DNA of 64,000 nt. It comes from Pelosinus fermentans DSM 17108 (GTDB lineage Bacteria > Bacillota > Negativicutes > DSM-13327). The notes below the pieces were generated by a model. It ran no database searches. It was not told where the DNA came from and saw only the letters and a program-made list of their open reading frames with translations. This document shows positions 2-12,498 of this stretch, in pieces. Position 1 is the stretch's first letter, and every line of letters begins with the position of its first letter. The DNA lies in the NCBI RefSeq assembly GCF_000271485.2, contig NZ_AKVN02000001.1:1678001-1742000 (forward strand), in the 5' to 3' direction. The translations under genes and the position numbers were made by a program.

Positions 2-724
2 TTAAGTAAGCATATGGCGAAGGAAGGATATGAGGTAGCTGTTGCAGACTTGATATATGAAAATGCACAAAAGGTTTCAGATGATATCAATGCTAGCGGT
101 GGTAAAGCAATTGCAGTAGGGGTGAATGCTTGTAGTGAAGATGAAGTAAAAGCAATGGTACAAAAGGTTGTAAAGGAATTAGGAAGAGTGGACTTATTAA
201 TATACAATGCAGGAATAGCCAAAAGCTGCAAGATTACTGAATTCGAATTACGAGAATTTAATCGAATTGTAGATGTTAATTTAAATGGATATTTTCTTTG
301 TGCTAGAGAAGTAGCGAAAGTAATGATAGATAGAAATATTAAAGGAGCTATTATTGAAATAAATTCTAAATCGGGTAAAACGGGAAGTAAATTTAACAGT
401 GGCTACTCAGCGGCAAAGTTTGCAGCTGTTGGTTTAACGCAAAGTTTAGCTTTAGATCTAGCGGATGATAATATAAGAGTCAATGCAATGATGCTTGGCA
501 ATCTTCTGGATTCAGATTTATTTGAAAGCTTGCTGCCCCAATATGCAGTTAAATTAGGAATACCAGAATCACGAGTAAAGCAAACATATATAGATAAGGT
601 GCCATTAAAGAGAGGATGCACTTTTGAAGATGTTGCAAATGTAGTTGCTTTTTATGCGTCAGAAAAAGCAAATTATTTAACAGGGCAATCTGTAAATATA
701 ACTGGTGGACAAGTAATGCACTGA
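2..724 (+). CDS. srlD: Sorbitol-6-phosphate 2-dehydrogenase, 5' end cut by window
   Basis: Short-chain dehydrogenase that oxidises sorbitol-6-phosphate to fructose-6-phosphate with NAD. The frame is open to the left window edge, and the first in-frame ATG (14) lies inside the protein: about 20-25 residues with the glycine-rich NAD loop are missing. Counting from that ATG, the catalytic Tyr131 and Lys135 (YSAAK) are present, with NAG at 65-67 and the C-terminal TGQSVNITGGQVMH stretch typical of SrlD/GutD. Long runs such as the NSKSGK-GSK-NSGYSAAKF block match E. coli SrlD as I remember it. It is followed by gutM and the sorbitol PTS genes, which supports substrate assignment. Very sure of family, sure of function. 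Confidence 0.93.
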   Translation, partial: LSKHMAKEGYEVAVADLIYENAQKVSDDINASGGKAIAVGVNACSEDEVKAMVQKVVKELGRVDLLIYNAGIAKSCKITEFELREFNRIVDVNLNGYFLCAREVAKVMIDRNIKGAIIEINSKSGKTGSKFNSGYSAAKFAAVGLTQSLALDLADDNIRVNAMMLGNLLDSDLFESLLPQYAVKLGIPESRVKQTYIDKVPLKRGCTFEDVANVVAFYASEKANYLTGQSVNITGGQVMH

Positions 725-824
725 GAGGATGTGTCAAAAAAACAAGTTAATTAGTAGTTAAAATAGCTGAACAGTAAGATAATAGTTAATGAAAGTAGGA
801 CTTGAGATTAAAGGGGGAAACTAT

Positions 825-1244
825 ATGCTGTGGTTTGTTCTTCTTGCTGCAGGGATGTGGATACTTCAAGGAGTACTTGGTTTTTGGCAATTGAGACATT
901 TTAATCAGCGATTTAAATTATTGAGAAAAGAAGGCAGAGTCGTTATTGGCAAGTCTAAAGGCCGTGTTACCGCTGGGGTTGTGCTGATGTTTTGTCTTGA
1001 TCAAGATTGCAATATTATCAGGGGCGAAAAAATGGAAGGGTTTTCAATTTTTGCTAGATTGAAGCCTTTTAATTGCTTCAATCATTTAAATTTATTAGCC
1101 CTTGAAGAAGGTAAATGTTACGGATTAGATAAATCAGCGAGCAAGGCAGTAATGAACGCTATTGAAAATTATAAGGCGTTTATTAATATAGCGAAATCTG
1201 GTATGGAGGTGGCTGGAACAGAAAATACAAGAATCACTGTGTAA
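825..1244 (+). CDS. gutM: Glucitol operon activator GutM
   Basis: Small GutM-family protein of 139 residues, which in enterobacteria activates the glucitol operon. It begins with one hydrophobic segment ([20 protein letters not shown]), so it is probably membrane-anchored, followed by the family pattern [22 protein letters not shown]. An upstream in-frame ATG at 789 exists but has no ribosome site; AAAGGGGG just before 825 decides the start. It lies between srlD and the PTS subunits in one direction. The molecular mechanism of GutM is poorly known; here it may act as an accessory factor for the PTS-dependent regulator rather than as a DNA binder (inference). Confidence 0.85.
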
Positions 1245-1278
1245 TGGCATTAAAAAAAATATTGAGAGAAGGTATCGT

Positions 1279-1848
1279 ATGGACATTTTCATTGTGTTGG
1301 CCAAAGGGTTTATCGGCATGTTTAATGAAGGTGGCAAGGTTTTTGTAAGTATGATAACTGGAATAATACCTACGTTAGTTATGTTGCTTGTAGCCATGAA
1401 TGCTCTAATTCGATTTGTCGGGCAAGAGAAAGTTGAAAAGCTCGCTCATTTGTGTGGTGGCAATCCTATATCTAGATATCTTATTTTACCAGTAATAGGA
1501 ACTTTTTTCTTTTGTAATCCAATGACTTTATCGTTAGGAAAGTTCTTGCCTGAAAAATATAAGCCCAGTTATTATGCTGCATCTTCTTTTTCTTGTCATA
1601 GTATGAATGGTTTATTTCCACATATAAATCCTGGAGAATTATTTGTTTTTCTTGGAATTGCGGCTGGGATAACTCAATTGGGTTTATCAACGGTTGATTT
1701 AGCAGTAAGATACTTTCTTGTTGGAGTTGTGACCAATTTCTTTAGAGGATGGATTACTGATTTTATTACCGCATATGTTGAAAAACAACAAGGCGTCAAG
1801 TTAAAAGCTGAAGTGAGTACTGTACAGTCGACTGGCTTCACGATTTAG
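1279..1848 (+). CDS. srlA: Sorbitol PTS permease IIC2 subunit
   Basis: EII-Gut type membrane subunit (189 residues) of the sorbitol phosphotransferase system, which moves sorbitol in and phosphorylates it. It shows several hydrophobic helices, with [20 protein letters not shown] near residues 25-45 and others at about 65-80, 110-130 and 140-160. The signature region [29 protein letters not shown] and the [20 protein letters not shown] block are highly typical of SrlA. The length matches the family. It starts 34 bases after gutM and is followed 16 bases later by srlE, so the genes are surely co-transcribed. Confidence 0.95.
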
Positions 1849-1864
1849 GAAGGGGGGATTGGAA

Positions 1865-2854
1865 ATGGCGAATTATAAATCAGTTATTATAACGGCAGGA
1901 CGAGGCGGCTTTGGTGGACCATTAGTGATTCAGCCTAATGATACCAAGAATAAGATTGTCAATATTACCGGTGGTGTCATTTCATCTGTTGCAGAAAAGA
2001 TAGCTGAAATGACAGGCTGCGCAGTGGTAGATGGATTTAAAATGAAAGTGCCTGATCCTGAAATTGCTTGTGTAGTCATCGATTGTGGAGGAACTTTACG
2101 ATGTGGAATATATCCTCAAAAAAGGATTCCAACAATTAACTTGATGCCGTCTGGCCCCAGTGGACCTTTGGCAGAACATATTACGGCAGATATTTATGTA
2201 TCTGATGTCAAAGAAGTAAATATAAATTTTAGCGATGGAACTATCCAGAATGCGATTTCTGAAGATAGTAGTGCTAAAAAGTCTAAGTATGATACCCAGA
2301 AGAAAATCAGCGAACAGACTACTGCTGGTGTTATGGCCAAAGTCGGAAAGGCTATGGGTGGTATAACTGCTACATTTTATCAAGCCGGCCGGGATGCTAT
2401 CAATACTGTCTTAAAAACTATATTGCCTTTTATGGCGTTTGTATGCATGTTAATTGGTGTTGTACTAAGTACGGGCATTGGTGATACTTTTGCTAAAGTA
2501 CTAATACCGTTAGCTGGAACCATCCAAGGGTTGGTTTTGCTGTCTGCAATATGTTCTTTTCCTTTCTTATCTCCATTTCTAGGGCCGGGTGCTGTAATTG
2601 CTCAAGTAATTGGGGTGCTGATTGGCGTTGAGATCGGTAAAGGCACGATTCCACCTCAATTGGCGCTGCCGGCGCTTTTTGCAATCAATTCCCAGGCCGC
2701 TTGCGATTTTATTCCAGTCGGTTTAGGATTGGCTGAAGCGGAAGCCGAAACAGTAGAAGTAGGTGTACCTTCTGTATTGTATTCGCGCTTTATTACTGGA
2801 CCTACGACAGTATTGGTTGCCTGGGCTGCTAGCTTTGGTCTCTACGCAAAATAA
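1865..2854 (+). CDS. srlE: Sorbitol PTS IIBC subunit
   Basis: IIB-IIC1 subunit of the sorbitol PTS (329 residues). The N-terminal IIB domain carries the phosphorylated cysteine in [14 protein letters not shown] (Cys74), and the C-terminal half is a membrane domain with the family block [17 protein letters not shown] and the [19 protein letters not shown] motif, very close to E. coli SrlE. An ORF can be read from a TTG at 1859, but the ATG at 1865 stands 7 bases after a GGGGGG ribosome site and is chosen. It receives phosphate from SrlB (IIA) encoded next. A hairpin with a T-run follows directly, before srlB. Confidence 0.95.
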
Positions 2855-2863
2855 AAAGTGAAG

Positions 2864-2898
2864 AAGCAATGGATGGATATAATTCCATTGCTTTTTTT
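2864..2898 (+). terminator. Hairpin terminator between srlE and srlB
   Basis: Ten-base arms AAGCAATGGA (2864-2873) and TCCATTGCTT (2884-2893) with a ten-base loop, followed by a run of seven T. It has the form of an intrinsic terminator but sits inside the operon, so it may act as a partial terminator that lowers srlB expression relative to srlE, or protect the 3' end of the upstream message. Confidence 0.75.
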
Positions 2899-2930
2899 AA
2901 TATTTAGGCGCTATTATGGAGGTGTAGTCT

Positions 2931-3293
2931 ATGAGAATTATATATAATACTATGGTTACTACTATTGGCGAACTTGTATCAGCATTTTACAAGGAGAAAC
3001 TGATCATTATTTTCAAAGATAATGCTCCGGAGGAATTGGCTGATTATTGCGTATTACATGCTGGCAATATGCTTTCGGATTGCGTTAAACAGGGCGATGT
3101 TTTAGTCATAGCTGGTCAAGAATATAGAATTGTATATGTAGGCGATGAAGTGCAAACCAACCTGCAAAATTTAGGGCATATAACCTTACGGTTTGATGGT
3201 ACTACGGAAGGACTAGGCGGAAGTGTATATCTTGAGGACAAGGCACTGCCTGTCATAAAAATTGGCGATACTATTTCTATATACAGAAAATAG
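2931..3293 (+). CDS. srlB: Sorbitol PTS IIA subunit
   Basis: Soluble IIA component of the sorbitol PTS (120 residues), which takes phosphate from HPr and passes it to the cysteine of SrlE. His43 in the DYCVLHAGNM segment is at the position of the phosphorylated histidine of E. coli SrlB, and the NLGHITLRFDG stretch is typical of the family. A strong GGAGGTG ribosome site precedes the ATG at 2931. It is the last gene of the sorbitol operon; the following 100 bases are a spacer before the promoter of the T-box unit. Confidence 0.93.
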   Translation: MRIIYNTMVTTIGELVSAFYKEKLIIIFKDNAPEELADYCVLHAGNMLSDCVKQGDVLVIAGQEYRIVYVGDEVQTNLQNLGHITLRFDGTTEGLGGSVYLEDKALPVIKIGDTISIYRK

Positions 3294-3394: not shown

Positions 3395-3424
3395 TTGACA
3401 TTAGTAAAGGTAAAATGATAGAAT
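3395..3424 (+). promoter_or_regulatory. Sigma-A promoter of the T-box unit
   Basis: Perfect -35 box TTGACA (3395-3400), 18-base spacer, and -10 box TAGAAT (3419-3424). Transcription would start near 3431, just upstream of the T-box Stem I. Confidence 0.75.
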
Positions 3425-3437
3425 TCATTCCAAAGCA

Positions 3438-3690
3438 TAATGAAGAATAGTAATGACGGAATAAGTAAACCACTTGCAAATTTTCAGAGAGTCGGCATAC
3501 GGTGGAAGTCGACAATGAGCGGTGGAAGAAGATCCCTCCGGAACTGTGTTTCTGAACGTTAGTAAGAAATACCGGGTTAGCCACGTTATTTGGCTTAGGT
3601 TTGATAGAACTGAAGAGGCATTGTTGTGCAATAAAGGTGGTAACGCGGGTAATAACTCGTCCTTGGATATATTCAAGGGCGAGTTTTTTT
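3438..3690 (+). ncRNA. T-box riboswitch leader
   Basis: tRNA-sensing leader. Visible parts in order: Stem I with an AGTA S-turn (near 3463), AGAGAG and GGTGGAAG elements; a Stem III region with GTTAGTAAG, ACCGG and CGTTA; the T-box sequence AAAGGTGGTAACGCGGG (3633-3649), whose TGGT can pair with the ACCA end of an uncharged tRNA; and a terminator with arms AACTCGTCCTTG (3654-3665) and CAAGGGCGAGTT (3674-3685) and a T-run. The T-box can pair with the terminator 5' arm to form the antiterminator. I could not fix the specifier codon: the 3' side of the specifier loop (around 3525-3536) offers ATC (Ile), which suits a threonine dehydratase, but AAG also fits by position. Confidence 0.92.
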
Positions 3691-3717
3691 ATATTCAAAA
3701 TCATTTGGAGGTAACTT

Positions 3718-4962
3718 ATGTTGAAGCAAAATAATAGCATTTTTCATGTAGCTAATTCTCGTGTATCGATTGAAGATATTTATGCTGCAGAAAAAAAATT
3801 ACAAGGTATAATCAAAAAAACAGAGCTCATTGAAAGCCCAGTGTTTAGTAATGAGTGTGGAAATCTGGTATTCATTAAACCAGAGAACCTACAAGTTACA
3901 GGTGCATTCAAAATCCGCGGAGCCTTTAATAAGTTGAGTAAGTTAAGTGATGAGGAAAAAAGCAGGGGAGTCATCGCTTCCTCAGCGGGAAATCATGCCC
4001 AGGGGATTGGCTATGCAGCTCAATTACTAGGTATTAAGGCTACTGTTGTGATGCCTGCAACCACGCCCATTATTAAAGTGGAAGCTACAAGAAATTATGG
4101 AGCAAATGTTGTATTATACGGCGATAGTTATGATGAAGCTTATAAAAAAGCCAGAGAACTGGAGACCGAACATAACTATGTTTTCGTGCATCCCTTTGAT
4201 GATTTGGATGTAATTCTTGGTCAAGGTACAGTAGCTTTGGAAATTTTGAATCAATTAGAAGATGTTGACGAGATTTTAGTTCCTATAGGCGGAGGCGGTT
4301 TAGCAAGTGGCATTGCATTTGCGGCGAAAATGCTAAAGCCAAGTATCAGAATTATCGGAGTTGAGCCAGAAGGTGCATGCTGCATGAAAAAGTCTTTGGC
4401 TGAGAATCAAGTAATAGAGCTGGAGAGAGTGGATACCATAGCAGACGGTGCTGCTGTAAAAAGGGCAGGTACATTAACTTTCGAATTTATCAGAGAGTTT
4501 GTTGACGAAGTCATTGCTGTTTCTGATTTTGACATTGCAGAAGCAATACTGCTTTTAATCGAAAAGCATAAGCTGATTACGGAAGGAGCAGGGGCGCTGT
4601 CCTTGGCTGGTTTAAAGAAATTGTCTTCCAAGAATAAAAAAATCGTTTGTTTAGTCAGTGGCGGTAATATTGATATTTTAACGATTTCGGCTATCATTAA
4701 TAAGGCCTTAGTATTTAGAGGAAGGCTATTTTGTTTTACCATCAATTTACCCGACAAACCAGGAGAATTATTACATGTGGCAAAAATTATCTCTGAATTA
4801 AATGCAAACGTAATAAAACTGGATCATAATCAATCCAAAGTGATGGACAGCTTTAAGCAGGTTCAGCTGGAAGTTACTGTAGAGACAAATGGACATAGTC
4901 ATGTAGAGGAAATTGAAGCTGCTTTTCAGCGAAATAGCATTGAGATTCAAAAGATTTACTAA
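3718..4962 (+). CDS. ilvA: Threonine dehydratase with ACT domain
   Basis: PLP enzyme of 414 residues that deaminates threonine (and usually serine) to 2-oxobutyrate. The PLP lysine is Lys65 in TGAFKIRGA, the substrate motif SSAGNHAQG follows near residue 88, and the phosphate-binding loop GGGGLASG near 190. Residues about 335-414 form a C-terminal ACT domain (LPDKPGELLHVAKIISEL). The short form with a single ACT domain resembles the catabolic TdcB-like clostridial enzymes as much as biosynthetic IlvA, so the symbol is provisional. A GGAGG ribosome site precedes the ATG. T-box control argues for a link to an amino-acid level, most likely isoleucine or threonine. Confidence 0.88.
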   Translation: MLKQNNSIFHVANSRVSIEDIYAAEKKLQGIIKKTELIESPVFSNECGNLVFIKPENLQVTGAFKIRGAFNKLSKLSDEEKSRGVIASSAGNHAQGIGYAAQLLGIKATVVMPATTPIIKVEATRNYGANVVLYGDSYDEAYKKARELETEHNYVFVHPFDDLDVILGQGTVALEILNQLEDVDEILVPIGGGGLASGIAFAAKMLKPSIRIIGVEPEGACCMKKSLAENQVIELERVDTIADGAAVKRAGTLTFEFIREFVDEVIAVSDFDIAEAILLLIEKHKLITEGAGALSLAGLKKLSSKNKKIVCLVSGGNIDILTISAIINKALVFRGRLFCFTINLPDKPGELLHVAKIISELNANVIKLDHNQSKVMDSFKQVQLEVTVETNGHSHVEEIEAAFQRNSIEIQKIY

Positions 4963-5010
4963 TAGATTGCAATCTTTGACTGCAGTGAGAATATACAATG
5001 AGGTGAATGT

Positions 5011-5655
5011 ATGACTGTGAAAAAGTTATTTTGGAAAGATCCTTACTTAAAACAATGTACTGCAACGATAATGACTGTCGATGGTAATCGTATTACTCTT
5101 GACCAGACAATCGTGTTTGCTTTTTCTGGCGGCCAGGCATCGGATTCGGGGACCATTCATGGTTATGCTGTGTTAACAGCCCAAAAAGTTGCAAAAGAAA
5201 TTATTTATGAGATTGATGTATCCCATGATTTGCAAGTGGGACAGCAAGTGAATGTGGTTATTGACTGGGATAAACGTTATAGAATCATGAAACTTCATTT
5301 TGCCGCAGAAATTGTACTGGAGCTGATGGTTCAAAATTTTAATAATCCTAAAAAAATCGGCGCCAATATAATGGAAGAAAAAGCAAGAGTGGATTTTGAG
5401 TGGTGTGGAAATATTTCAGAGGTCTTGCCCTTATTGCAAAAGAAGATGGAGGAAATTATTAATTCCAATTCTCCCATTTTAAGTTGTTTTAGTGATGAAG
5501 AGCGGGAAATCAGATATTGGGAAATCAAAGGTTTTGGCAAAGTTCCTTGTGGCGGAACTCATATAAAAAATACTGGTGAAATAGGCGCTGTCTTGCTAAA
5601 AAGAGGAAAACGTCTTGGTGCTAATAAAGAAAGAATTGAGATCTATTTACGCTAA
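5011..5655 (+). CDS. AlaX-like tRNA editing domain protein
   Basis: Stand-alone relative of the alanyl-tRNA synthetase editing domain (214 residues), a family that removes wrong amino acids, usually serine, from tRNA-Ala. It has the FSGGQ version of the N-terminal GGGQ motif (residues 39-42) and the CGGTH zinc motif (Cys180, His184). The usual HxxxH is HFAAE here (His96, Glu100), so one zinc ligand is changed to Glu; this may mark a subfamily. It sits 48 bases after the threonine dehydratase in the same T-box unit. The substrate tRNA is unknown; a role connected with threonine or serine mischarging is an inference. Confidence 0.82.
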   Translation: MTVKKLFWKDPYLKQCTATIMTVDGNRITLDQTIVFAFSGGQASDSGTIHGYAVLTAQKVAKEIIYEIDVSHDLQVGQQVNVVIDWDKRYRIMKLHFAAEIVLELMVQNFNNPKKIGANIMEEKARVDFEWCGNISEVLPLLQKKMEEIINSNSPILSCFSDEEREIRYWEIKGFGKVPCGGTHIKNTGEIGAVLLKRGKRLGANKERIEIYLR

Positions 5656-5721
5656 ATTATGAAGAGTTAAAAATTAGGTATTGCCTATTATAATTCTTTA
5701 CCTTATAATGAAAGAAAAAAG

Positions 5722-5737
5722 TGTCAATTAACTGACA
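5722..5737 (+). promoter_or_regulatory. Palindrome, candidate binding site of the sigma-54 activator (copy 1)
   Basis: Inverted repeat TGTCA-ATTAAC-TGACA upstream of the activator gene. A near-identical copy (14 of 16 bases) overlaps the stop codon of the same activator at 7336, upstream of the sigma-54 promoter. Two copies flanking a sigma-54 activator suggest an enhancer-type upstream activating sequence. Confidence 0.55.
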
Positions 5738-5742
5738 CAAGC

Positions 5743-5793
5743 AAAGACGCTTGTACAGGGACTAATTTTAGTTCTGTATAGGGCGTCTTTTTT
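5743..5793 (+). terminator. Terminator after the T-box operon
   Basis: Outer arms AAAGACGC (5743-5750) and GCGTCTTT (5783-5790) with a nested TACAG/CTGTA pair inside, followed by a T-run to 5793. Confidence 0.75.
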
Positions 5794-5871
5794 GTTTAGC
5801 AAAGTTTATAGTAATCCTTCATAATGCAGAGAGTGAAAGTGTTTATTATATGATAAGGGAGGCGTGCTTTT

Positions 5872-7344
5872 ATGAATTCTCAGTATCCTTTGCCGATTGA
5901 GGAATTTCGCAGTTATCTTGAAGCAGACCAATCAGAAAAAGTAATAGAGAGTTTTCAGCAGCTTTTAACCTTATATGAATTGCAGCAGGCTAGGCTGGAA
6001 GCACTATTAGATACAGTTAATGAGGCGGTATGCATTATTGATGAATCAGATAAAGTAGTAGTGTGGAATCATCATGCTGAGCTTTTATATGGAATTGCCG
6101 CTGATGAAATTATTGGGCGTCCTATCGAAGGTTTCTTTTCCAATTTAATGCTAACTAAAGTGATGAAAGAACGCCGCACCGTGCATGAACAATACCACAC
6201 TCCTTGTCCTGATACTCATGTATTAATTAACGCAAGACCTGTGAAGTTATCTGGTCAGGTGATCGGCGGAGTTTGTGCGGAACGGGATATTACAGAAGTA
6301 GTGCAGCTAAATCAAAAACTATCCCAGACTCATCAGGAAGTACAAACCCTAAAACAAGAAATTGATAAAATTCATTCCCAGTCAGATTCCTTTTCGACGG
6401 TTTATGGTCATAGTGCCGCTATTCGCGAAGCGGTTAGTATTGCCAGGCGTGTTGCAGCAACGGCGGTTCCAGTATTACTGCGTGGAGAAAGCGGCACAGG
6501 AAAAGAATTATTTGCCCGTGCTATTCATGATGCCAGTCAATTTACGGGTCCCTTTATTGCTATAAACTGTGGAGCGATTTCTCCTAATCTATTTGAAAGT
6601 GAATTGTTTGGCTATCAGCCCGGTGCATTTACGGGAGCTGACCGCAAAGGAAAAGTGGGGTTATTAGAGCAAGCGAATGGAGGAACTCTCTTACTCGATG
6701 AGCTGGGAGATATGCCTAAAGACATGCAGGTAAAGCTACTAAGAGTTCTGCAGGATAAGAGTTTCTATCGTGTGGGCGGCAGCAAAGCGATTCATATTGA
6801 TGTTCGTATTATTGCTGCTACCCACCGCAATTTAGAAGAAATGATTAAGAACGGTGAATTTCGCGAGGATCTATATTATCGTTTGAATGTAGTGGCGGTA
6901 TCCCTGCCTTCATTGCGTGACAGGTTAGATGATATACCCGAATTAGTTCATAAGGGTGTTTTGCATTATGGCACAATTCATAATAAAAAAATCTCAAAAG
7001 TGAATCCTGCACTCATGGCATCTTTTATTCAATATCCATGGCCTGGAAATATTAGAGAGTTATTCAATGTATTAGAACGGCTGGTGATTTTAGCTGATAG
7101 TGACCAATTGGGGATCGATAACCTGCCAGCTACCTTCTGCCAATTGGATTTTCCTATGGAAAGTATAGATCCCTGTGCTATGGAAGGCAGTTTGTTGGAA
7201 AAAACGATAAGCCTAGAAAAAGAAGTGATTGCTAAAGTTTTGGCAGAATTCCATTTTAATAAAGCAGCTGCAGCAAAAAAACTCGGTATCCCTCGCAGCA
7301 CCTTATATTACAAAATGCAGAAGCTGGGACTAGAATGTCAATAA
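5872..7344 (+). CDS. PAS-containing sigma-54-dependent activator
   Basis: Enhancer-binding activator of 490 residues. Order: N-terminal region, PAS domain (about 42-145), coiled coil (145-170), AAA+ sigma-54 interaction domain (about 175-400), Fis-type helix-turn-helix (about 450-487). Walker A GESGTGKE (205-212), the sigma-54 contact loop GAFTGA (251-256) and Walker [12 protein letters not shown] (270-280) are intact. It resembles RocR-type regulators of amino-acid catabolism. A GGGAGG ribosome site precedes the ATG. It is flanked by two copies of a TGTCA palindrome and stands directly upstream of an operon with a textbook sigma-54 promoter, which it probably controls; the PAS domain may sense the substrate. 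Confidence 0.93.
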
Positions 7345-7351
7345 ACTGACG
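7336..7351 (+). promoter_or_regulatory. Candidate activator binding site (copy 2)
   Basis: TGTCA-ATAAAC-TGACG overlaps the stop codon of the activator and lies about 270 bases upstream of the -24/-12 promoter, a usual enhancer distance. It matches the copy at 5722 in 14 of 16 bases with the same spacing. Confidence 0.55.
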
Positions 7352-7414
7352 CTATCGTCGAATGGTAGATGAAAAATGTTGTTATAAAAGGTCATTATTA
7401 AAAATAGATACAGA

Positions 7415-7451
7415 AAAAAGTGCCGAAAAGAATATGATCGGCACTTTTTTC
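7415..7451 (+). terminator. Terminator of the activator gene
   Basis: Arms AAAAAGTGCCGA (7415-7426) and TCGGCACTTTTT (7438-7449) with an 11-base loop and a T-run. Confidence 0.85.
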
Positions 7452-7476
7452 TATACTAATAGGCTAGAATGATTGA

Positions 7477-7541
7477 CACAGAGAACACAGAAGGAGATTT
7501 TTAACCCTTATCTATGTTTTCTCTGTGTTCTCTGCGCCTCT
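7477..7541. repeat. Intergenic inverted-repeat element of CACAGAGAACACAG type
   Basis: Arms CAGAGAACACAGA (7479-7491) and TCTGTGTTCTCTG (7522-7534), followed by CGCCTCTGCGGTTC. I recognise wording of this kind (CTCTGTGTTCTCTG-C-CCTCTG-GGTTC) as a dispersed repeat found between genes in many bacteria; that memory is not verified here. It occurs once in this window, between the activator terminator and the sigma-54 promoter. Confidence 0.5.
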
Positions 7542-7607
7542 GCGGTTCGAAGCTGTAGTAGTGTTTTCTCTGTTTTCACTAAATTTATAATATAAAAAAT
7601 ATATAGT

Positions 7608-7622
7608 TGGCACGGTTATTGC
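7608..7622 (+). promoter_or_regulatory. Sigma-54 (-24/-12) promoter
   Basis: TGGCAC (7608-7613), five-base spacer, TTGC (7619-7622): a full match to the sigma-54 consensus, with the invariant GG and GC ten bases apart. It lies 30 bases before the first gene of the dehydrogenase operon. Confidence 0.9.
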
Positions 7623-7651
7623 ATTAGGAATAGGGCAGGAGGTGTTTAACT

Positions 7652-7957
7652 ATGAGAATTGTCAACCATCCAATACTGACATTTCCAAAACAAGATATGG
7701 TGACCTTCACATTGAATGGTCAAACGATAGAGGGAATAGCGGGAGAGCCAATTGCTGCTGCACTACATGCGGCTGATGTAAAGGTATTGCGTCATAGTCA
7801 TGGACGTCACCGTCCTCGTGGTCTTTTTTGTGCCATTGGCAACTGTTCATCTTGTTTGATGACAGTAGATAAAATTCCGAATGTACGGGTTTGTATTGAG
7901 CCCCTTCGCGCTGGTATGGTAGTAGAGACCCAAGAAGGGAAGGGGAAGATCGTATGA
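7652..7957 (+). CDS. Small [2Fe-2S] subunit of FAD-dependent amino-acid dehydrogenase
   Basis: Ferredoxin-like protein of 101 residues of the HcnA/SoxA-N-terminal type. Cys60, Cys65, Cys68 (CAIGNCSSC) and Cys81 can bind one [2Fe-2S] cluster. It probably passes electrons between the flavin subunits encoded downstream. The start codon follows a GGAGGTG ribosome site, and the stop overlaps the start of the next gene by four bases, showing tight translational coupling. In related systems (hydrogen cyanide synthase, octopine oxidase, D-hydroxyproline and archaeal proline dehydrogenases) such a subunit accompanies two FAD proteins. Confidence 0.86.
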   Translation: MRIVNHPILTFPKQDMVTFTLNGQTIEGIAGEPIAAALHAADVKVLRHSHGRHRPRGLFCAIGNCSSCLMTVDKIPNVRVCIEPLRAGMVVETQEGKGKIV

Positions 7958-9042
7958 TAACAACAGAGATCTTAATCATAGGAGCTGGTCCGGCTGGTTT
8001 AATGGCTGCCATTCATGCTGCAGAGGCTGGTGCAAAAGTACTGCTTGTCGAACGGGCAGATCGTTTGGGCGGGCAGTTAATAAAACAAACTCATAAATTT
8101 TTTGGTTCAAAAGCAGAATTTGCCGGAGAACGTGGAATGGATATAGCTGAAAAATTGATCAACTGGAGCTCAGATATTTCAGGTATCACCATATGGAAGA
8201 ACGCTGTAGTACTGGGAATCTATCCAGATGGCGTAGTTACGATTTCCCATGAAGGTGCTTTTTGCACAGTCAGTCCTAAAAAAATTATTATTGCAACGGG
8301 CGCTTCGGAAAAAACTATGGCTTTTCCTAATAATGATCTGCCAGGCATTTATGGCGCAGGGGCAGTCCAAACCTTAATGAATGTTCACGGAGTAATACCG
8401 GCAAAAAGGATACTCATGATTGGTGCTGGCAATATTGGTGTGATTGTAGCCTATCAATTACTGCAGGCGGGTGTTGAAGTTGCAGGCATTGTAGAAGCGG
8501 CACCCCAAGTTGGCGGTTATCGTGTTCATGCTGCTAAGCTGCAGCGTCATGGTGTACCCATTTATACATCTCATTCGATACAATCAGCCCATGGCGATTC
8601 CTGTTTGGAAGGTGTTACGATTTGCCGACTGGACGAACAATGGCAGCCGATTGAGGGAAGTGAACAATATATTGCTGTAGATGGGCTCTGTTTGGCGGTA
8701 GGATTAAGCCCCTTGACAGAACTGTTGTGGCAGGCGGGCTGTGAAATGAAGTTTGCAGCAGAATTAGGCGGTTATGTACCATTGCGTGATGCCAATATGA
8801 AAACAACTCATGAGAATATCTATGTAGCTGGTGATGTTTCAGGAGTCGAAGAAGCCTCAGCAGCTATGGTAGAAGGAAAATTGGCAGGCTTGTATGTTGC
8901 ATCTGTTTTAGGACATAAAAAAGATTCGTTTACAAAAGAGTTTCAGACTGCAAAATCACAACTGAGTGCCTTGCGCTCTGGTCCAGCAAGTGTGAAGATT
9001 TGTACGGGACTTAGCAAAGTTGTTTTAGAGGAGGTTGGATAA
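7954..9042 (+). CDS. FAD/NAD(P)-binding alpha subunit of amino-acid dehydrogenase complex
   Basis: Flavoprotein of 362 residues of the HcnB/OoxA type. An N-terminal FAD-binding motif (IIGAGPAGLMAAIHA, residues 6-20) and a second dinucleotide fold (MIGAGNIGVIVAYQL, around 153-167) define a pyridine-nucleotide-disulfide oxidoreductase fold; the C-terminal part has the FAD-contacting IYVAGDVSGVEEA motif. In the archaeal dye-linked proline dehydrogenase complexes the matching alpha subunit handles NADH or electron transfer while the beta subunit oxidises the amino acid. It overlaps the preceding gene by ATGA and ends one base before the next start. Confidence 0.88.
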   Translation: MITTEILIIGAGPAGLMAAIHAAEAGAKVLLVERADRLGGQLIKQTHKFFGSKAEFAGERGMDIAEKLINWSSDISGITIWKNAVVLGIYPDGVVTISHEGAFCTVSPKKIIIATGASEKTMAFPNNDLPGIYGAGAVQTLMNVHGVIPAKRILMIGAGNIGVIVAYQLLQAGVEVAGIVEAAPQVGGYRVHAAKLQRHGVPIYTSHSIQSAHGDSCLEGVTICRLDEQWQPIEGSEQYIAVDGLCLAVGLSPLTELLWQAGCEMKFAAELGGYVPLRDANMKTTHENIYVAGDVSGVEEASAAMVEGKLAGLYVASVLGHKKDSFTKEFQTAKSQLSALRSGPASVKICTGLSKVVLEEVG

Positions 9043-9043
9043 A

Positions 9044-9487
9044 ATGCCATCACAAGAACGTTTTGCGAAAGGTCCAATCGCTTTATTTGAATGTATGCAG
9101 CAAATCCCCTGTAATCCTTGTGCTGATGCTTGCCCACGGGGTGCCATTACCGTAAAAGAAATTAATGACTGTCCTTCTTTAAATGAAGAACTTTGCAATG
9201 GCTGTGGAGTGTGTATGACTCACTGCCCTGGGTTGTCTATCTTTGTTGTTGACTATACTTATGGAAAAGATGCGGCCTTAGTTAAAATTCCCTATGAATT
9301 TTCTCCTTTGCCGGAAGCGAAAACCGTTGTTGATGCTTTAAATCGACAAGGTCAATGTATCGGTACCGCCCAGGTCATTCGGGTGCAAACATCACCAAAT
9401 AAAACTAATATTATTTGGCTGTCTGTGCCCCGGGAATTAGCTATGGAGGTACGCAGCATTCACCTTAAGAAAGGAGAAACATCATGA
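9044..9487 (+). CDS. Ferredoxin-type [4Fe-4S] subunit
   Basis: Iron-sulfur protein of 147 residues. Cysteines 17, 23, 26, 30 and 51, 54, 57, 61 (CNPCADACP and CNGCGVCMTHCP) can hold two [4Fe-4S] clusters. The rest of the chain has no known domain. The ATG at 9044 with its GAGGAGG site is preferred to a TTG at 9035. Its place between the two flavin subunits suggests it carries electrons from the flavins to a downstream acceptor, possibly quinone or ferredoxin (inference). Confidence 0.85.
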   Translation: MPSQERFAKGPIALFECMQQIPCNPCADACPRGAITVKEINDCPSLNEELCNGCGVCMTHCPGLSIFVVDYTYGKDAALVKIPYEFSPLPEAKTVVDALNRQGQCIGTAQVIRVQTSPNKTNIIWLSVPRELAMEVRSIHLKKGETS

Positions 9488-9762
9488 ACCATAATGATAT
9501 TATTATCTGTCGTTGTGAAGATATAACCTTAGGGGAGATTAGAGAGCAGATTGCACAGGGAAAACATACTCTGGAAGAAATAAAAAGAGCTTGCCGTTCC
9601 GGAATGGGCCCTTGCCAAGGAAGAACTTGTGCTCCTCTTATTGTGAGTGAAATTGCCAAGGCCACAGGAAAGCCTGTCGCACAGATTCCTCTGCCTACGT
9701 TTCGTCCTTCTACCTCTCCCATTAAGATGGCTTCTTTGTTAGGAGGAGATCAACATGATTAA
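9484..9762 (+). CDS. BFD-like [2Fe-2S] subunit
   Basis: Protein of 92 residues with the bacterioferritin-associated-ferredoxin fold (Fer2_BFD). Cys9, Cys11, Cys44 and Cys49 (CRC and CQGRTC) form the cluster site; GMGPCQGRTC is characteristic of the C-terminal part of OoxA/HcnB-type proteins, here a separate chain. It overlaps both neighbours by a few bases. A split-off BFD subunit is known in the archaeal proline dehydrogenase complexes, supporting the same assembly here. Confidence 0.87.
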   Translation: MNHNDIIICRCEDITLGEIREQIAQGKHTLEEIKRACRSGMGPCQGRTCAPLIVSEIAKATGKPVAQIPLPTFRPSTSPIKMASLLGGDQHD

Positions 9763-10903
9763 GAATGCAGATGTTGTGGTAATTGGCGGCGGTGTCATCG
9801 GCTGTTCCACTGCCTATAACTTAGCTAAATTAGGTGCAGGTAAAGTAGTCGTATTAGAAAAGAATTATTTAGCCAGTGGTGCTACAGGGCGCTGCGGTGC
9901 AGGCATGCGAATGCAATGGGGCACAGAGACCAATTGTCTTTTGTCTCGTGAAAGTGTTAAGATGCTCTCCCATTTACCAGAATTGCTGAATGTGGATGTA
10001 GATATTGAATTTACCCAAAATGGTTATTTAATGCCCGCTTATTCGGAGAAAATGGCAGAACAATTTAAAAAGAATTTGGTACTGCAAAATTCTCTTAACA
10101 TTCCTGCACGTTGGGTGACGCCAGAGGAATCTTTGGAAATTGTCCCTTTTTTGAATACAAAAGGAATGTTTGGCGCTACCTATTGTGCAGAAGATGGCCA
10201 TTGTAATCCTTTTAAAGTAACAGAAGCTTATGCCCAAGCTGCTAAAAATTTAAATGTTGAGATTTATACTGATACGGAAGTGCAAGGCATTATAACGAAG
10301 AACGGTAAAATTATTTCCGTCCGCACCAATCAAGGCAATATTCAAACGGATACGGTTGTAAATGCGGCAGGAGGTTATGCAAAGACTGTCGGCCGTATGG
10401 TTGGCGTTGAACTTCCAATTTTTCCAGAACGTCATGAAATTTTGGTAACAGAACCTGTAGAACCTACTATGGGACCCATGGTTATGAGCTTTTATCACAA
10501 TTTGTATTGTCAGCAAAGTCCTCATGGCAGTTTTATTATGGGAATTGGTCATCCAAATGAACCGGAAAGTTATAATATAAAATCCAGTTGGCAGTTCTTA
10601 CGTGATATGGCTGAGCGGCTTGTGGAAATTCTGCCGCCTTTGGCAGGGCTAAATGTCGTTCGGCAATGGGCGGGATTATATGATATGTGTCCTGACCGCA
10701 CACCGATATTAGGCAGCAGTCCTGCGCTCAATCGTTTCTTCACTGCTGCAGGCTTTAGTGGTCATGGTTTCATGATTTCACCTATCACAGGTCAATTAAT
10801 GGCAGAGATGGTAGTGGGAAAACCTACGGCCTTTCCTATCCAAATGTTTGATGCTGGGCGGTTTGACCGCGGAGAGTTATTTATAGAGCCATCTGTTGTG
10901 TGA
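9755..10903 (+). CDS. FAD-dependent amino-acid dehydrogenase catalytic (beta) subunit
   Basis: D-amino-acid-oxidase/sarcosine-oxidase fold (DAO family), 382 residues. The FAD loop GGGVIGCSTAYNL is at residues 11-23, SGATGRCGAGMRMQWG at about 41-56, and the C-terminal AGFSGHGFMISPITGQLMAE is typical of sarcosine oxidase, HcnC, OoxB and the proline dehydrogenase beta subunit. It probably oxidises an imino acid or secondary amine. Because the operon ends with a glutamate-semialdehyde dehydrogenase, L-proline, D-proline or a hydroxyproline isomer is the best guess; sarcosine or an opine cannot be excluded. Confidence 0.85.
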   Translation: MIKNADVVVIGGGVIGCSTAYNLAKLGAGKVVVLEKNYLASGATGRCGAGMRMQWGTETNCLLSRESVKMLSHLPELLNVDVDIEFTQNGYLMPAYSEKMAEQFKKNLVLQNSLNIPARWVTPEESLEIVPFLNTKGMFGATYCAEDGHCNPFKVTEAYAQAAKNLNVEIYTDTEVQGIITKNGKIISVRTNQGNIQTDTVVNAAGGYAKTVGRMVGVELPIFPERHEILVTEPVEPTMGPMVMSFYHNLYCQQSPHGSFIMGIGHPNEPESYNIKSSWQFLRDMAERLVEILPPLAGLNVVRQWAGLYDMCPDRTPILGSSPALNRFFTAAGFSGHGFMISPITGQLMAEMVVGKPTAFPIQMFDAGRFDRGELFIEPSVV

Positions 10904-10950
10904 GCCAATATGTATCATTACATTAAAATATGAAAGTGAGGAATTTAAAA

Positions 10951-12498
10951 ATGATTACAGAATACAAAAATGAACCTTTTACTAACTTTGGTCTGCCAGA
11001 AAACAAAGCTGCTATGGAAAAGGCATTGGCTGGGGTGCAGTTGGAAAAAGCTTCTCATTACCCACTTGTTATCGGCGGAGAAACTGTTGATACAGAAGCG
11101 CGTATTACGTCGATTAATCCTTCCAACACATCTGAAATTGTTGGTACCGTTGCCCGGGCCAATATAGATTTAGCTGAAAAAGCAGTGCAGGCCGCCAATA
11201 AAGCATTTGCTTCATGGCAGTATGTAGACCCCGCAGAACGATCTTTGTATTTGTTTAAAGCTTCTGCTATTTTACGCCGGCGTAAATTTGAGTTTTCCGC
11301 TTGGTTAGTGGAAGAGGCAGGAAAAACATGGGCGGAAGCGGATGCCGATACTGCAGAAGCAATCGATTTTATGGAATACTATGCTCGCCAAATGGATAAG
11401 TATGCAAAAGGCATGGAAGTAATACCTTATCCTGGAGAACAGAATGAGTGTGCCTATATTCCTCTCGGTGTTGGTGTTGTAATTCCACCATGGAATTTTC
11501 CTTTAGCCATTTTAGCAGGAATGACAGCAGCAGCTATTGTAGCTGGTAATACGGTGATTATGAAGCCTGCAAGCTCAACGCCTGTAATTGCTGCTAAATT
11601 TATGCAGTTGTGGGAAGAAGTCTCTTTGCCTGCTGGTGTTGTGAATTATCTTCCCGGCAGCGGTGGAACGATTGGCGATTATTTGGTATCTCATGCTCAA
11701 GTGCGCTTTATTAATTTTACAGGTTCTAAAGAAGTCGGACTTCGCATTAACAAGTTAGCTGCTGATTTGTCCCCAGGGCAGAAATGGATTAAAAGAGTCG
11801 TAGCTGAAATGGGCGGTAAAGATTCTATTGTTGTAGACAGTGAAGCTGATCTTGAAGAAGCAGCAGCTGGAATTGTTGCATCTGCCTTTGGTTTTCAGGG
11901 ACAAAAATGTTCTGCCTGCTCTCGTGCTATTATCGTGAAAGATGTATATGATGCAGTACTGGCGAAGGTAGTAGAAAAGACGAAAGCACTTAAGATTGGT
12001 GCTGCCAGCAGCCCTGAAAGTAATATTGGTCCTGTAATCGATGAAAACTCTTATAAAAAGATTTTAAGCTATATCGAAATTGGTAAAACAGAAGGAAAAC
12101 TAGAGTGCGGTGGATCTACGGCTGGTGATCAAGGCTACTTTATTGCACCAACTGTATTTTCAGGGATTTCTCCCGAGGCCCGCATTTCCCAAGAAGAGAT
12201 ATTTGGGCCCGTGCTTGCGGTGATTCCTGCTGATGACTTTGACCATGCTCTTGCTATTGCCAATGGTACTGAATATGGCCTTACTGGCGCTGTGTATTCA
12301 AAGAGCCGTGCTAAACTGGAAAAGGCTCGCCGTGAATTTCATGTAGGCAATCTATATTTTAACCGTAAGTGCACAGGTGCTTTAGTCGGTGTTCATCCTT
12401 TTGGCGGTTTTAATTTGTCAGGTACAGACTCTAAAGCGGGCGGTGCTGACTATTTATTGCTCTTTTTACAAGCAAAATCGATTTGTGAAAAGTTATAA
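10951..12498 (+). CDS. rocA: L-glutamate gamma-semialdehyde (P5C) dehydrogenase
   Basis: Aldehyde dehydrogenase of 515 residues that makes glutamate from pyrroline-5-carboxylate/glutamate semialdehyde with NAD. The catalytic cysteine is Cys320 in GFQGQKCSACSRAI and the general-base Glu lies in VAEMGGKD; the N-terminal NEPF-NF start and the AGNTVIMKPAS-TPVIAA block are typical of RocA/PruA. GTGAGG stands correctly before ATG 10951, so the upstream in-frame ATG at 10930 is rejected. As the last gene of the sigma-54 operon it supplies the step after proline oxidation. The related use on 4-hydroxy-glutamate semialdehyde is possible if hydroxyproline is the substrate. Confidence 0.93.
   Translation: MITEYKNEPFTNFGLPENKAAMEKALAGVQLEKASHYPLVIGGETVDTEARITSINPSNTSEIVGTVARANIDLAEKAVQAANKAFASWQYVDPAERSLYLFKASAILRRRKFEFSAWLVEEAGKTWAEADADTAEAIDFMEYYARQMDKYAKGMEVIPYPGEQNECAYIPLGVGVVIPPWNFPLAILAGMTAAAIVAGNTVIMKPASSTPVIAAKFMQLWEEVSLPAGVVNYLPGSGGTIGDYLVSHAQVRFINFTGSKEVGLRINKLAADLSPGQKWIKRVVAEMGGKDSIVVDSEADLEEAAAGIVASAFGFQGQKCSACSRAIIVKDVYDAVLAKVVEKTKALKIGAASSPESNIGPVIDENSYKKILSYIEIGKTEGKLECGGSTAGDQGYFIAPTVFSGISPEARISQEEIFGPVLAVIPADDFDHALAIANGTEYGLTGAVYSKSRAKLEKARREFHVGNLYFNRKCTGALVGVHPFGGFNLSGTDSKAGGADYLLLFLQAKSICEKL

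Follow-up and report, generated by a model that had tools for sequence, protein, structure and literature searches.

Why should a gene for a likely tRNA-editing protein follow a threonine dehydratase gene, and which tRNA would govern the two of them? The question is raised by a 64 kb stretch (referred to below as the window) of a Pelosinus genome, G000, which spans 5.03 Mb in two contigs. A T-box leader, a threonine dehydratase gene (ilvA) and a gene for an AlaX-like protein (alaX) appear to form a single unit there between 3395 and ~5795, opened by a promoter-like site and closed by a terminator-like hairpin (Table 1). An earlier note on this DNA took the pair for a system of threonine or serine degradation under an unusual logic of tRNA control. 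The leader, its specifier, the gene order, the conservation of the genes and the predicted protein fold were computed, and they point to a different reading, which we consider likely as a whole: an isoleucine T-box stands over ilvA and over a variant aminoacyl-tRNA deacylase that has HFAAE where HxxxH is usual, and both proteins would be made in isoleucine shortage. What is unusual in this unit is the AlaX-like gene; the T-box part is of a kind already known.

As the earlier note had described, a complete T-box leader precedes the dehydratase and editing-protein genes. It matches the full RF00230 model, is the only match above a gathering score in the window, and has an orthologue above the gathering score in all eight genomes of the genus. 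Besides its score, the leader shows a terminator and an antiterminator with a common strand, a UGGN bulge, and a specifier codon for one tRNA with a fitting discriminator. The genome yielded two copies of tRNA-Ile(GAU), both ending in A-CCA, and this tRNA suits the UGGU bulge because its discriminator is A73.

The identity of the sensed tRNA turns on the register in which the specifier is read, for which ATC and AAG had both been put forward. The covariance-model check suggested in the earlier note was run and gave AUC, isoleucine. The genome has at least 22 T-boxes at an E-value of 0.01 or better, 17 of them above the gathering score (150 of 202 first-look candidates were scored). Besides the window leader, 20 of the remaining 21 had their specifier column read, L054 being left out of the alignment, and the downstream genes were named by hidden Markov model (HMM). 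Nine leaders of this set precede synthetase genes, and every one has the cognate codon in that column: UAC for tyrS, GUA for valS, CUC for leuS, AUC for ileS and for a second ileS, GGC for glyQ, UUC for pheS, ACC for thrS and UGC for cysS. The calibration calls for some caution at cysS, which begins 712 bases downstream of its T-box, and at the two ileS frames, which are cut by locus ends and score 616.7 and 586.4 bits against a cut-off of 621.4. Leaders of biosynthetic genes carry CUC (leuA), AUC (ilvB), UGG (a TrpD-type protein, PF00591) and UCC (a SerA-type protein) in the same column, and GUC (valine) stands there in the leaders of an IlvD-type protein and a branched-chain permease.

Comparison among leaders gives the same answer. 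An ileS leader reads GAAGAUCACUC (GAA-G-AUC-A-CUC), a string found unchanged in the ilvA leaders of G006 and G008, and the window leader reads GAA-G-AUC-C-CUC. The triplets GAU (Asp), GAA (Glu) and AAG (Lys) overlap or adjoin AUC within a purine-rich stretch, so that a specifier in one of these other registers might be imagined; we find this scarcely credible, since it is contradicted by the nine synthetase-gene leaders that fix the register and since the bases flanking AUC change among the genus leaders (C or A follows it) whereas AUC itself is constant in all eight. The Lys, Asp and Glu registers were rejected on this in-genome calibration, leaving ATC of the two earlier candidates and removing AAG. 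As far as sequence can settle the matter, the specifier of the ilvA leader is AUC.

Two further AUC leaders of this genome deserve mention. G000 has two genes for isoleucyl-tRNA synthetase (IleRS), each behind an isoleucine T-box; the second, at L048 (G000:C1:2830021-2830240), has its own AUC leader, and its fragment scores 566 and 563 bits with the MupA and MupB models, nearly at the ileS level, where the cut-offs of those models are 1900. At L046 (G000:C1:4719516-4719770), an AUC T-box precedes a permease of the sodium/bile-acid-symporter family (PF01758), possibly a transporter of a branched-chain precursor or product.

The first gene of the unit fits the isoleucine specifier. Its product is a threonine ammonia-lyase of the single-ACT form (TIGR01127, 459 bits against a cut-off of 378.75) with a PALP domain (290.5 bits) and an ACT match of 20.3 bits, below the Pfam cut-off of 27. 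A second IlvA paralogue, 45% identical, is encoded at G000:C1:728945 with no T-box inside 1.5 kb. Nothing in the genome passes the cut-off of TIGR00977, the only model of citramalate synthase applied (best match 248 of 450 bits), and the conversion of threonine to 2-oxobutyrate is therefore probably the isoleucine route in this organism. The AUC specifier, the A73 of tRNA-Ile(GAU) and the lack of a match above the TIGR00977 cut-off do not bear out a logic of threonine or serine degradation; we rejected the unit as a breakdown system, the specifier being Ile. Nor is its control unusual, as had been supposed, because an isoleucine T-box on ilvA is plain isoleucine biosynthetic control with an ordinary switch logic.

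The leader resembles known isoleucine T-box control of branched-chain genes in its RF00230 fold, AUC specifier and UGGU bulge, and AUC leaders also stand before ilvB and both ileS genes of this genome. In PMC12452182, ilvA (COG1171) is one of the T-box-regulated genes tabulated in a survey of tandem riboswitches in Bacillota. The Pelosinus unit differs in that its second gene encodes an editing protein, and a pairing of ilvA with an editing protein under a T-box is named nowhere in the titles and abstract openings of the literature searched. Control of ilvA also differs between neighbouring genera. In two genomes of the same family, G001 and G002, the ilvA products are 80% and 79% identical to that of the window, and neither gene has a T-box upstream within 1.5 kb. 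In G002, a CUC (Leu) T-box (L066, G002:C295, 563-790, minus strand) lies directly downstream of the ilvA orthologue and before a leuA-like frame.

A mechanism can be proposed from the anatomy of the leader. In isoleucine shortage, uncharged tRNA-Ile would bridge the AUC specifier and the UGGU bulge, which would steady the antiterminator and permit read-through into ilvA and then alaX. IlvA would convert threonine to 2-oxobutyrate for isoleucine synthesis, and the second protein would act in trans as a free-standing deacylase. The response to tRNA-Ile and the co-transcription of the two genes, and for the second protein metal binding, deacylation and substrate, are thus what we infer from the computed features.

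The second protein has a tRNA_SAD domain (PF07973, 39.1 bits against a cut-off of 24), and at E 0.001 the only other Pfam family to appear is PF01411. By phmmer it matches AlaX-M 2e1b at 2.9e-31. Its AlphaFold model (pLDDT 92.1) finds P. furiosus AlaX-M 9iuw as the top entry in a Foldseek and VIA-align comparison (Z 27.0, 1.6 Å over 209 residues); P. horikoshii AlaX-M 2e1b, at Z 25.6, is level with archaeal alanyl-tRNA synthetase (AlaRS, 25.6-25.8), and the threonyl-tRNA synthetase (ThrRS) entries are lower, at 13.2-15.5. The alignment behind the model included four AlaRS editing domains, which may pull it towards that fold. The protein shares with AlaX-M (2e1b, 9iuw) its length, a predicted fold that superimposes over 209-211 residues, CxxxH and GGQ, but differs in having HFAAE rather than HxxxH and FSGGQ or FNGGQ rather than TGGGQ, and it is about 30% identical. 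AlaX-M proteins are defined by HxxxH plus CxxxH; with HFAAE and CGGTH, the window protein retains three of the four ligand positions. It would therefore share the predicted fold of AlaX-M, and perhaps its chemistry, yet in both its motif pair and its score with the AlaX-M profile it falls outside that class. The genome has four SAD-domain matches, which include the window protein and a 423-residue AlaX-like frame; of the others, a 640-residue frame is ThrRS (behind T-box L055) and an 886-residue frame is probably AlaRS.

AlaX proteins bind their metal through HxxxH and CxxxH. The window protein keeps H96, C180 and H184 and has E100 where four AlaRS rows have the second His. The replacement was already described in the earlier note and is confirmed here, but it is a fixed feature of the family rather than an oddity of one copy: all 24 close homologues counted, that of the window among them, have HFAAE (13 of 13 and 11 of 11 in two sets). 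This count omits L004, L014-L016, L100, L103 and L105, which are copies of counted genomes or of G004, a genome almost identical to that of the window, and includes L102, L106 and L107, which are broken or partial and were kept out of the tree. The 21 full-length members have FSGGQ or FNGGQ, and L106, where it reads as an open frame, has YGGQ instead of FSGGQ; GGQ and the three other ligand positions are invariant in a six-row alignment. In a tree with three outgroup rows, these 21 members group as a single clade (support 98/95); the tree was used only for this split, 13 of its 21 inner branches being open, its bootstrap unsettled and its outgroup branches very long. The window copy compared with five other genus copies gives dN/dS of 0.09-0.17, with dS above 2 in two of the five pairs; a sixth comparison, with the Gottfriedia copy, yielded no dS. 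By these codon comparisons, the Pelosinus alaX copies are under purifying selection. Because HFAAE occurs in all homologues, within a single clade and with low dN/dS, the change to Glu is an old, retained feature.

Glutamate is a usual zinc ligand, and the motifs make an H/E/C/H metal site probable. The best reading of the HFAAE protein is that it is a variant aminoacyl-tRNA deacylase: a free-standing enzyme of predicted AlaX-M fold, in a distinct subfamily with the second zinc-ligand His replaced by Glu, which would most likely strip a small misattached amino acid from tRNA, whether serine, glycine, threonine, alanine or 2-aminobutyrate. Serine and glycine on tRNA-Ala are given as the usual AlaX targets in PMC11295145. 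Neither the HFAAE subfamily nor an assay of an HFAAE protein appears in the titles and abstract openings of the open-licence AlaX literature searched.

Homologues with HFAAE come from the class of the window genome, the order of the Gottfriedia genome G301, the family of the Sporolactobacillus genome G300, and an unplaced 0.8 Mb bin. The gene is found in 11 of 300 genomes of the class (eight of the 11 in the window's own family), in 10 of 299 of the Gottfriedia order and in 5 of 26 of the Sporolactobacillus family. The window copy is 62% identical to that of Gottfriedia, 60% to that of Sporolactobacillus and 58% to that of G001 from its own family. Although a gene of ~159 residues is common upstream of alaX within the Gottfriedia-type group, no neighbour common across the groups was seen. 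In the genus, alaX directly follows ilvA in seven of the eight genomes. The loci examined outside it were L010-L013, L017-L019, L031-L034 and 11 more; the idea of an alaX with its own T-box elsewhere was rejected, none reaching the gathering score at these loci. One locus, L097, carries a Bacillaceae-1 RNA. In Sporolactobacillus putidus (L017, 5744-6223), a YbaK-family editing gene follows the HFAAE gene (TIGR00011, 61 bits, below the cut-off of 153). A general alaX and YbaK-type editing cluster was dropped as a candidate, as no YbaK-type gene was seen in the frames of L101 and L104.

Several of these observations, and some others, tell against an isoleucine-controlled deacylase. The window leader lacks one stem pair (A.C) adjoining the specifier loop that the seven other genus leaders have. 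The protein misses the cut-off of the AlaX-M model NF040865 (158.4 of 300 bits), and without one of the canonical ligands its site could be inactive or turned to another use. Only in Pelosinus does alaX stand beside ilvA, and even there one ilvA unit manages without it: in G009 (85% complete), a single contig continues from ilvA into the same hairpin and regulator gene without an intervening alaX, nor did a copy turn up elsewhere in that genome. We take alaX to have been lost in G009, because G006 and G008, which are more distant in ilvA (87% versus 92%), have it. In all 18 other homes of alaX, flanks of at least about 1.5 kb per side contain no ilvA (tblastn, 1e-5) and no Rfam T-box. Three of the 18 (L102, L106 and L107) read in two tblastn frames, which suggests that these genes are decayed, unless the sequences are in error, and that some lineages may dispense with the gene. 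Since the other homes are without ilvA or a T-box, the isoleucine link is a trait of the genus Pelosinus. A passenger origin is consequently a serious rival, and quite possible: alaX would be a mobile editing gene that inserted between ilvA and the terminator in a Pelosinus ancestor and has no tie to isoleucine, a history compatible with its product being a deacylase. The patchy spread, the 18 homes without ilvA, the closer likeness of the window copy to distant groups than to G001, and the gap in G009 all agree with such an insertion; retention behind ilvA in seven genomes whose proteins diverge by up to a third, together with the low dN/dS, argues against it.

Other alternatives concern what the protein does. 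That it is no deacylase, but a relic or a binding protein whose metal site no longer works, is rather improbable in our view. The second canonical His is replaced in every member and three members read in two frames, as a relic would predict, but the remaining ligand positions and GGQ are invariant, dN/dS is low and Glu can serve zinc. A more specific proposal is that the HFAAE protein deacylates tRNA charged with 2-aminobutyrate (Abu), or with a relative derived from 2-oxobutyrate, under conditions in which isoleucine is in short supply and IlvA is induced. Transamination of 2-oxobutyrate gives 2-aminobutyrate, and the pairing of alaX with ilvA under isoleucine control speaks for this. Abu is mischarged by IleRS and by the valyl-, leucyl- and prolyl-tRNA synthetases (ValRS, LeuRS and ProRS), according to PMC11295145. 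We nevertheless think the proposal unlikely, because alaX has no ilvA partner outside the genus, because IleRS and ValRS edit Abu themselves, and because the genome already has four matches to the PF04073 editing domain (three in ~165-residue frames, free-standing by length, and a fourth, probably ProRS, in a frame of 576 residues). According to PMC9023258, IleRS efficiently hydrolyses Abu-tRNA-Ile and misactivates Abu up to 20-fold below the tolerable error. Were the idea to hold, the protein would resemble the Abu-tRNA deacylase ProXp-x (PMC11295145) as a free-standing editor directed against a metabolite of the 2-oxobutyrate branch; ProXp-x, however, belongs to the INS superfamily, which has another fold, and its substrate was tested. 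A Pfam search did not find the INS/tRNA_edit domain PF04073 in the AlaX-like protein. The boldest version, in which HFAAE proteins are a new AlaX-fold substrate class that uses an H/E/C/H site to clear 2-aminobutyrate and that in Pelosinus is co-transcribed with the enzyme making the hazard and gated by the at-risk tRNA-Ile, is doubtful. We keep to an isoleucine T-box over ilvA and a variant deacylase whose substrate would be one of the small amino acids named above.

Table 1. Features of the ilvA-alaX unit in window coordinates.
Feature	Position	Strand	Basis
Sigma-70-type promoter-like site, TTGACA-18-TAGAAT, TG before -10	3395..3424	+	consensus scan, 11/12
T-box leader RNA, RF00230	3444..3667	+	cmscan, 113.8 bits (gathering score 93), all 219 model positions
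AGTA, 5' side of specifier-loop motif	3464..3467	+	aligned to model AGUA
GAA, 3' side of specifier-loop motif	3528..3530	+	aligned to model GAA
Specifier ATC (Ile)	3532..3534	+	Rfam column calibrated on synthetase-gene leaders; ATC in 8/8 genus leaders
TGGT of antiterminator bulge	3638..3641	+	could pair with ACCA of a tRNA having A73
Intrinsic terminator, 14 pairs, shares CTCGTCCTT with antiterminator	3654..3685	+	RF00230 alignment, terminator scan
ilvA, threonine ammonia-lyase, one C-terminal ACT-like domain, 414 aa	3718..4962	+	TIGR01127, PALP and ACT profile scores
AlaX-M-like protein, HFAAE subfamily, 214 aa	5011..5655	+	profile, homologue and predicted-fold comparisons
HFAAE in place of HxxxH, residues 96-100	5296..5310	+	24/24 close homologues
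CGGTH, residues 180-184, other two ligand positions	5548..5562	+	invariant in 10 alignment rows
Hairpin with T-run, probable end of ilvA-alaX unit	5743..5795 (about)	+	fold of 5700-5800, z -4.7

The limits of the unit are of unequal clarity. The promoter-like site is the best of 10 such sites in the scan, but it is little proof alone because such sites are not commoner here than in shuffles (10 observed versus 9.3). In the 48 bases between ilvA and alaX, the terminator scan lists no terminator-like site. The hairpin and its T's downstream of alaX probably end the unit; the hairpin is missing from the list of the simple terminator scan, and it is also found behind ilvA in G009, the genome without alaX.

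The flanking genes belong to other functions. Just before the T-box, 14-3293 holds a sorbitol/glucitol phosphotransferase system (PTS) cluster, in which sorbitol-6-phosphate dehydrogenase, GutM and IIA were identified by HMM and two frames in between resemble membrane components by eye only. Beyond the hairpin, 5872-12498 encodes a PrdR-like sigma-54 regulator (564.6 bits, below the cut-off of 795), followed by sarcosine-oxidase-like FAD proteins that score far below cut-off, and includes an L-glutamate-semialdehyde dehydrogenase (832.8 bits against a cut-off of 648); the region has the appearance of a cluster for the oxidation of proline or hydroxyproline.

With the sensed tRNA now read as tRNA-Ile, the apparent oddity of this locus becomes ordinary isoleucine control, and what is singled out instead is a conserved subfamily of AlaX proteins whose metal site is altered. 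If it is true that the substrate of this protein is a by-product amino acid of the flux through IlvA, the Pelosinus unit would place a biosynthetic enzyme, together with the partner that corrects its errors, under the control of a single tRNA-sensing leader.

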